A stretch of 64,000 bases of DNA from Cyclonatronum proteinivorum (lineage in GTDB: Bacteria; Bacteroidota; Rhodothermia; Balneolales; Cyclonatronaceae): contig NZ_CP027806.1 in NCBI RefSeq assembly GCF_003353065.1, positions 778,997 through 842,996 of the forward strand. The letters are read 5' to 3'. The notes under the pieces are model-generated. The model saw only the letters and a list, made by a program, of their open reading frames with translations. It was not told where the DNA came from and searched no databases. Every line of letters starts with the position of its first letter. Within the stretch, counting starts at the first letter, position 1. Of this stretch, positions 13,133 to 53,997 are shown in pieces. A program made the translations under genes and the position numbers.

Positions 13133-13366
13133 TCAGCCCGCATTATTCACCAAGAAATTTTTTTGCTGGCAAGGCGAAGCTGAAAACTCAGCGGAAGAGT
13201 ACCTAAGTACTCTGAGCATGAGTTTTCAGCTTCAACGCCGCCAGCGGGAAAATTTCGCAGCCTTTACACCACACTCAAATTTGGGGTACCAGTGTTTTTC
13301 ACTAAGCCAAACTTAAACTAACACTTAGCTAATAAATTCTTTTTTATTGTGAATAATGCGGGTCAG
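13133..13366. mobile_element. MITE-like element copy 1 with TCAG target duplication
   Basis: The element proper is 13137-13362 (226 bp). Its ends are perfect 14-bp inverted repeats, CCCGCATTATTCAC at 13137-13150 and the complement at 13349-13362. It is bounded by a direct 4-bp duplication, TCAG at 13133-13136 and 13363-13366. No transposase is encoded. The end structure (ends in CC, about 15-bp repeats, 4-bp duplication) is like that of IS1380-family elements, which is inference. A shorter relative is at 51442-51515: the last 59 bp of this copy (13304-13362) align with that copy in inverted orientation. Confidence 0.85.
13151..13297. mobile_element. Nested hairpin element inside the MITE
   Basis: Bases 13154-13256 form a long imperfect palindrome: the arm that begins GAAATTTTTTTGCTGGC and contains GAAGCTGAAAACTCA is repeated inverted as TGAGTTTTCAGCTTC...GCCAGCGGGAAAATTTC. 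At the centre, AGAGTAC-CTAA-GTACTCT is a perfect 7-bp stem. The 74-bp relative at 51442 lacks this segment. Both of its sides here read TTCAC (13146-13150 and 13298-13302), as if a 147-bp element had inserted with a 5-bp duplication. It has no coding capacity. Confidence 0.55.
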
Positions 13367-14553
13367 TACAAAAACCCGAACAGCCAAAGCGGAATGCGGT
13401 TCCCGAAGCCGGTTTCTATGCCGTCAACCGCAAGGTAGGCGTTGGACTCCCCTTTAATTTGTGCAGGGGTTTCGTTTTTGCCGCCGATTTCAAACAGGTA
13501 GTGGTCATCAACCCGAAAATCAGCTTTGTCCGGTTCGGTAACCGTGTGAAGCGGAGCGAGCTGACTCAGAAAAAAAGATTCCCGCTGTGTACCTGCATTG
13601 ACCTGTCCCGGGTTCAGACTGTGCATAAGGTTGGGATGTGCGAGATAAACTTTTTCGGGCTTGGTCAGCAAACTGATGCCTTTTTTCGCACTAAAGAGCG
13701 ATCGGGTAATTCCGGCCATATCGAGATAGCGGAAGTAGGCCTTCAGATTGTTTTTCCCGATCTGCATGCGTTCAGCAAGCTTGTCAATATTCGGCTTGAA
13801 CGGCACGCTGTGGCTGATGATGTACAGCAGCTGTTTTATTTTCTCCATGCTTGACGGGCTGATTCCGGTGGTAATCAGCAAGTCAGATTCAATCACCCGG
13901 ATTACCGTTTCGCGCAGGCGGATGTCGTAGGTTTCCGGGTTTTCAAAAAAGTAGGGATAGCACCCGCCTTTCAGGTAGGCTTCGAAATGCTGAAGTGGCC
14001 TGATCTCCTGCCAGATTTCTTTTGAAAGACGCTGATGGTCGCGCAGGATGTCTTCAAGACTTAGCAGCTCGAAAGATATTCCCGTTTCGAACAGGAGATA
14101 TTCCCGGAATGACAACGCAGGCAGATCATGAATCACGGCACGCCTCGACAGTTCGGGCAGCCCGTCGCTGAGTTGCAGCATGGAAGACCCGGTAAACAGC
14201 ACCTGTAAACCGGGATAGCGGTCATAGATGTTTTTCAGCTCCCGCGCCCATCCTTTGTAGCTGTGTACTTCATCTAAAAGCAGGCACTCGCCCCCAAGTT
14301 TTACAAAAGTGTCGGCAAAATCTGTAAGCCGCTGATCTGCAAAGGCGATGTCATCAAGGCTGATGTATAGCTTTTTTTTATCACGCAGGAATGACTTGGC
14401 AAACTGAAGCAGCAGCGTCGATTTCCCAACACCGCGCGCCCCTTTGAGGCCGATCATCCGCCCGCCCTGTGAGAGCTTCTGCAGTTGCGGGCGCTGAATG
14501 TCGGTAGATGCATGCGCGATCAGCCGCTCCGAAATTTCAAACAGGTAATCCAT
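13363..14553 (-). CDS. AAA_14/DUF4143 ATPase
   Basis: A 396-aa protein of the AAA_14-DUF4143 family. Walker A is KGARGVGKSTLLLQF near residue 40, Walker B is CLLLDEVHSYKGW near 93, and sensor-like VLFTGSSMLQLSDG follows. The C-terminal half is the DUF4143 region, which usually includes a winged helix and a nuclease-like fold; FEIGGKNETPAQIKG near the end fits that. Family members are numerous in Bacteroidota, often horizontally moved, and have no settled function. ATG 14553 has AGGAG just upstream. The stop codon lies within the target duplication of the adjacent MITE, so the insertion left the protein intact. Two palindromes lie directly upstream. Confidence 0.88.
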   Translation of the reverse strand: MDYLFEISERLIAHASTDIQRPQLQKLSQGGRMIGLKGARGVGKSTLLLQFAKSFLRDKKKLYISLDDIAFADQRLTDFADTFVKLGGECLLLDEVHSYKGWARELKNIYDRYPGLQVLFTGSSMLQLSDGLPELSRRAVIHDLPALSFREYLLFETGISFELLSLEDILRDHQRLSKEIWQEIRPLQHFEAYLKGGCYPYFFENPETYDIRLRETVIRVIESDLLITTGISPSSMEKIKQLLYIISHSVPFKPNIDKLAERMQIGKNNLKAYFRYLDMAGITRSLFSAKKGISLLTKPEKVYLAHPNLMHSLNPGQVNAGTQRESFFLSQLAPLHTVTEPDKADFRVDDHYLFEIGGKNETPAQIKGESNAYLAVDGIETGFGNRIPLWLFGFLY

Positions 14554-51437: not shown

Positions 51438-51519
51438 TTAACCCGCATTATTCACGATTAAACGGGCTTTATTTGCTTAGTGTGAGTTAAAATTTGGCTT
51501 CGTGAATAATGCGGTTTAA
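51438..51519. mobile_element. MITE-like element copy 2 (74 bp) with TTAA target duplication
   Basis: The element is 51442-51515, with ends CCCGCATTATTCACG and (inverted) ACCGCATTATTCACG, 14 of 15 matching. TTAA occurs directly on both sides (51438-51441 and 51516-51519). Its interior aligns, in inverted orientation, with the last 59 bp of the 226-bp copy at 13137-13362 (shared AAGCCAAA, TTAACT, ACACT and AATAAA blocks). It lies 80 bp upstream of the acetoacetyl-CoA synthetase gene. Confidence 0.8.
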
Positions 51520-53578: not shown

Positions 53579-53997
53579 TACGCGATAGGATGGAACGCAG
53601 ATTTTCGGGATGGGGAAGGATTTTCGCGGATTATTCACTTTCAGACCCCAAAAAAAACCTGAAAGGGTGACATACCAAAGCACAGGGTGCAACCCTGTGA
53701 TCGTGATGTTTCTCATTTGAAGCCCTGAAAGGGCGGCATATTTCCGATGTCTGAAATTCACATTAACCCGGATTTAACCGACCGAAGTATGCCGCTCATT
53801 CAGAGCTCTGATTATCCGGGCGTACGGTCGTACCAGGGTTTACACCCCGAGCTTTGATCTGTCGTCCCGTTGGGACTTTCCATCGGCAGAGAAGCGAATT
53901 TCAGGCCGCAAAGCCGAAATCAAAAAAAATAAGGACGCATAAGACCGGTTTGGTACGCCGGGAACCAGCATTGCTCCCCGGGTTTCCCCAAAAAGCA
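53579..53997. repeat. Repeat-rich intergenic region
   Basis: No gene was found. At about 53660-53745 related units appear: CCTGAAAGGGTGACATA, CAGGGTGCAACCCTG and CCCTGAAAGGGCGGCATA, and an inverted relative (TATGCCGCTCATTCAG) at 53789-53804. At 53864-53876 TCCCGTTGGGAC is a small palindrome. The pattern is of short palindromic dispersed repeats. Confidence 0.55.

Follow-up and report, generated by a model that had tools for sequence, protein, structure and literature searches.

Two short repeats in a 64,000-nucleotide stretch of the complete, single-contig genome of Cyclonatronum proteinivorum (4,294,247 bases; the whole stretch analyzed, host contig positions 778,997–842,996, is hereafter the window) are members of a transposed, high-copy family of non-autonomous MITEs. 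The family is very probably moved in trans by an IS1380-family DDE transposase, which would act on its 14-bp ends and leave a 4-bp YTAR duplication, and its main type carries a long hairpin that is conserved in related bacteria. A new bacterial MITE family is ordinary by itself; what deserves pursuit is the hairpin, which is conserved throughout an order, covaries and favors one strand. MITEs are usually dismissed as degenerate remnants confined to a single genome. In the MITE described here, size, hairpin and the match between the two ends have been retained in different genera of one order, and both covariation and a strand preference can be measured. The analysis also links end sequences that occur in many bacterial phyla with IS1380 elements.

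The window copies and the host family

Copy 1 (13137–13362, + strand) is a 226-bp element of the main type, flanked by TCAG at 13133–13136 and 13363–13366. Its terminal inverted repeats, CCCGCATTATTCAC at 13137–13150 (+) and its counterpart at 13349–13362 (−), are 14 bp long and match each other perfectly. Between them lie the long conserved hairpin (13154–13256, +; element positions 18–120), which covaries between species and is more stable on the + strand, and a variable right half (13257–13348, +). Neither a sigma-70 promoter nor a terminator was seen in copy 1. Read on the minus strand, the right target duplication supplies the TGA stop codon of an ATPase-like open reading frame (ORF; 13363–14553, −), so that this MITE was inserted exactly at the end of the gene. 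Copy 2 (51442–51515, −) is a 74-bp form that consists of the right half and both ends, without the hairpin half, and is flanked by TTAA at 51438–51441 and 51516–51519; its ends show a single mismatch, located in the right end. All of these ends and flanks agree with the initial annotation, which had also called the two interiors related. Aligned in reversed orientation, copy 2 and the right half of copy 1 share 81% identity over 68 bp; copy 2 is a 74-bp derivative of the right half of the main type. The window contains five end matches at up to two mismatches, with 0.47 expected. An end-like sequence at 53625–53638 (+), CGCGGATTATTCAC, has two mismatches and no partner end, and is probably a chance match.

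A search of the host genome with the end sequence, which the initial annotation had proposed, gave 217 matches to CCCGCATTATTCAC at up to one mismatch and none to a reversed-pattern control, and with copy 1 as the query 133 candidates were returned, the best 40 of which are all full-length or nearly so, at 86–100% identity. The host family amounts to about 100 copies, both window repeats included, and relatives carry it as well, so the prospect that no further copies would be found has been disposed of. The 82 elements with paired ends that were analyzed, taken from fetched host stretches, range from 74 to 282 bp: besides the 226-bp main type there are elements of approximately 254 bp, 280 bp and 74–194 bp, the short forms being internal deletions, and no long ORF is confined to the element. 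Among 40 host copies, divergence from the consensus was 0.9% of sites in the ends and 7.2% in the interior, and the left half is far more conserved than the right half. By a rough ORF call, which is not an annotation, insertions are mainly intergenic (3 of 42 within an ORF of at least 120 amino acids) and frequently lie between convergent genes, with no clear orientation bias in the neighboring genes. Those unpaired host ends that were examined belong to damaged or truncated MITEs or to halves split by an IS, and no full-length IS was found behind them. Searches of plasmid and viral contigs gave no match to the element.

Target duplications and transposition

An exact 4-bp duplication flanks 56 of the 82 paired elements (TTAA 23, TTAG 13, CTAA 12 and a few others), and in 49 of these it conforms to the consensus YTAR. 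The initial annotation had taken the differing duplications of the two window copies as strong evidence of transposition. Transposition stands, although part of the reasoning needs correcting: because the family favors YTAR targets, matching TTAA flanks are by themselves weak evidence, and flanks drawn from unrelated left and right elements agree in 19% of pairs, so that 15.5 of 82 matches are expected from target preference alone. It is the genome-wide excess (56 observed) that proves the duplication real, together with the sharpness of its position, as at shifted offsets at most 3 flank pairs match, compared with 56 at offset zero.

Many copies combine terminal inverted repeats with target duplications. 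The element does fold nearly entirely on itself, as REP and BIME sequences do, but that the repeats are REP-like or due to chance, and not transposons, has virtually no likelihood in our view, as it is already refuted by the duplication statistics and further opposed by the conserved, paired ends, by the patchy occurrence of the family among species of one genus, and by a nested insertion. In the latter, the host element at 1703146–1703371 sits within another MITE at TTAG, and once it is taken out together with one TTAG the outer MITE is continuous again, which makes this a paralogous empty site. In relatives, where the initial annotation had proposed to compare empty sites, flank matches were only partial and a syntenic empty site was not found.

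Ends and targets of the IS1380 type

The initial annotation had likened the CC(C/G) starts and the 4-bp duplication to IS1380-type elements, and this likeness holds up against IS1380 elements (NF033539, PF13701) of other genomes. Those measured, full-length and partial, end in YTAR|CC(C/T)G(A/G/C)AT(A/T)ATTCA(C/T), that is, in CC(C/T)GNATWATTCAY-type ends adjoining the duplication, and the MITE has both features. Planctomycetes bacterium Poly30 harbors three copies of a 1708-bp IS1380 element, CTAG|CCCGGATTATTCACGA...CGTGAATAGTCCAGG|CTAG, whose transposase scores 339.7 bits against NF033539 (cut-off 180). Ends of this type preceded by YTAR also lie beside IS1380 genes in Arenibacter, in a Chromatiales bacterium, in a Mariprofundaceae bacterium and in several members of the host's phylum. 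The end forms include CCCGGATTATTCAC in the Poly30 element and CCTGCATTATTCAT in another IS1380; at best the MITE ends differ from the measured IS1380 ends by 1–2 positions, and no IS1380 element examined ends in exactly CCCGCATTATTCAC. A putative C-terminal transposase fragment beside an Arenibacter end was considered and rejected, having no Pfam match and no useful plasmid match. A scan of all genome contigs with the bare 14-mer returned mainly chance matches and became informative once filtered for YTAR: 22 of 120 exact matches across bacterial genomes are preceded by YTAR, where approximately 2 are expected, several of these matches are accompanied by a partner end flanked by identical 4 bp, and some of these genomes hold dozens of ends. 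Judged by sequence, the end and target type of the MITE are those of IS1380. A literature search yielded nothing linking IS1380 with YTAR and nothing relevant on the end sequence.

The MITE differs from IS1380 elements in its 226-bp length and in encoding no transposase, and no IS1380 bearing its ends was found in the host. A full-length IS with the same ends, which the initial annotation had suggested looking for, was not found in the complete host genome; the six resident IS1380 copies (PF13701; NF033539, 291 bits) end in CCT(A/G)AATCCGTGA and have duplications of 5–7 bp where these are present. With no matching transposase gene found in the host, the MITEs look orphaned. We suggest that an IS1380-family DDE transposase would recognize the 14-bp ends in trans, excise (or copy) the MITE and insert it at a YTAR tetranucleotide, duplicating the 4 bp, and that the element supplying this transposase has disappeared from the host or never resided there.

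YTAR duplications of 4 bp are also typical of IS701, and another DDE family that makes 4-bp duplications, such as IS701, might move the MITE, with the likeness to IS1380 ends being superficial. The host does carry an IS701-like element (NF049999, 172.8 bits, cut-off 170), and several end-rich genomes have no PF13701 match. That element, however, ends in CTGGAGTTTGGCT, sharing no ends with the MITE, and lies within palindromes, where its duplications are longer; a resident IS4-type element ends in ACTCAACTTTCGCACTTC, and elements with IS1380 transposases, in several phyla, do combine matching ends with YTAR duplications. We consider a transposase of another family quite improbable and retain IS1380 as the probable source.

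The end-rich genomes without a PF13701 match are apparently draft MAGs (G062, G063, the Armatimonadetes genome G064, G065 and G067), with 26–146 CCCGCATTATTCAC-type ends each. Orphan MITEs may be common, or the ends may be used by a transposase of another kind. The IS701-like element of the host is approximately 1.76 kb long; its sites are palindromes, with long direct repeats. Copies of it at 326.0–327.8 kb and 383.9–385.6 kb of the host genome, inverted relative to each other, each hold half of one MITE, split at the apex of the hairpin, along with halves of a further palindrome. This points to an inversion of the approximately 58 kb between the two copies.

Outside bacteria, the piggyBac group, for which IS1380 has been used as an outgroup, has CCC-starting ends and TTAA duplications like those of the host MITE, but is eukaryotic (PMC10813416).

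The hairpin and its conservation among relatives

Further searches showed conservation of the left half of the element (the terminal repeat and the approximately 104-nt hairpin) beyond the host, in four more species of its family and in another family of the same order. Within the host's genus the distribution is patchy: a few copies occur in G001 and G002, G003 gives 13 matches, and there are none in G004 and G005, while the MITE is abundant in G006, G008 and G009, of the host's taxonomic family, and in G057, of another family of the order. The elements in these relatives are of approximately 226 bp and have YTAR-like duplications. Some seemed to have no nearby right end, and proved to be truncated at contig ends or to have the end after all.

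The predicted fold of copy 1 has an energy of −94.6 kcal/mol (z = −10.75), with element positions 18–120 forming one long hairpin. In 48 elements from seven genomes, 29 of the 51 predicted pairs of the hairpin and ends stay paired through two-sided changes. For the 36 pairs of the hairpin, 96.4% of cells pair, and changes on both sides were seen at 22 pairs and in 158 cells, compared with 14.1 pairs and 36.8 cells in shuffled controls; none of 500 shuffles reached the observed values, although shuffles ignore relatedness and so do not give probabilities. Slid controls, which retain relatedness, gave 21–57 cells. In some G057 copies the main stem differs in sequence but not in shape, and GCGGAA and TGAGCA, the internal-loop motifs, are preserved. 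No match above the gathering score was found in Rfam 15, and those below it were to eukaryotic hairpin families only. That the hairpin has been kept by matched base changes in related bacteria suggests that it does something.

In bacteria, template switching or repair within a palindrome can maintain complementarity between the arms of a quasi-palindrome, which would yield paired changes without selection. On such an account the hairpin would be functionless, and the 74-bp forms, which lack it and still carry target duplications, agree with this, indicating as they do that the hairpin may be dispensable for movement. Repair is expected to be strand-neutral, yet the hairpin has 113 G-T cells as against 10 A-C cells, in 47 of the 48 elements the + strand gives the more stable fold, as it also does on average in each of the seven genomes, and the loop motifs remain mismatched and conserved as the stems change. 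Since double-stranded palindrome repair would not give these asymmetries in pairing and stability, selection on RNA, or on one specific strand of DNA, is favored, and we think a functionless hairpin rather unlikely. The comparisons of predicted structures point to selection on a single-stranded structure, probably RNA, with a candidate function; rather than having persisted by chance, the hairpin would then be under selection as an RNA, such as a transcript of the element that is processed or has a protective role. Going further, we tentatively propose, with some doubt, that a mobile, strand-specific RNA hairpin of approximately 104 nt with fixed internal-loop motifs has the MITE as its vehicle. 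Such an RNA gene would owe its spread to IS1380-type transposition and would be under selection in at least two families of one order while the ends and the right half change; it would serve either the element or the host. Covariation and strand preference together make the question of functional RNA in MITE hairpins directly testable.

Bacterial MITEs are known to fold, to vary in size and to be targets of IS elements (PMC10969869). Among these, Chunjie of Geobacter and QMITE1 and QMITE2 of Coxiella resemble the host family in their length of approximately 200 bp, their tens of copies, their terminal repeats and duplications, their self-folding and their size variants, and the palindromes of QMITE2, like the host MITE, are also IS targets (PMC10969869). 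The host MITE differs from them in a hairpin with demonstrated interspecies covariation and a preference for one strand, and in its IS1380-type ends.

While the hairpin has been retained, the two ends have changed together, to CCCGGATTATTCAC in G003, G006, G008 and G009 and, likewise in concert, to CCCGCATTTCTCAC, CCCGGATTTCTCAC and CCTGCATTATTCAC in G057. The family looks like a persistent MITE lineage that followed changing transposase specificities. In G057 several MITE subfamilies are found, in which left and right ends vary together (TTTCTCAC, TATTCAC, ATCTCAC), as if tracking different transposases.
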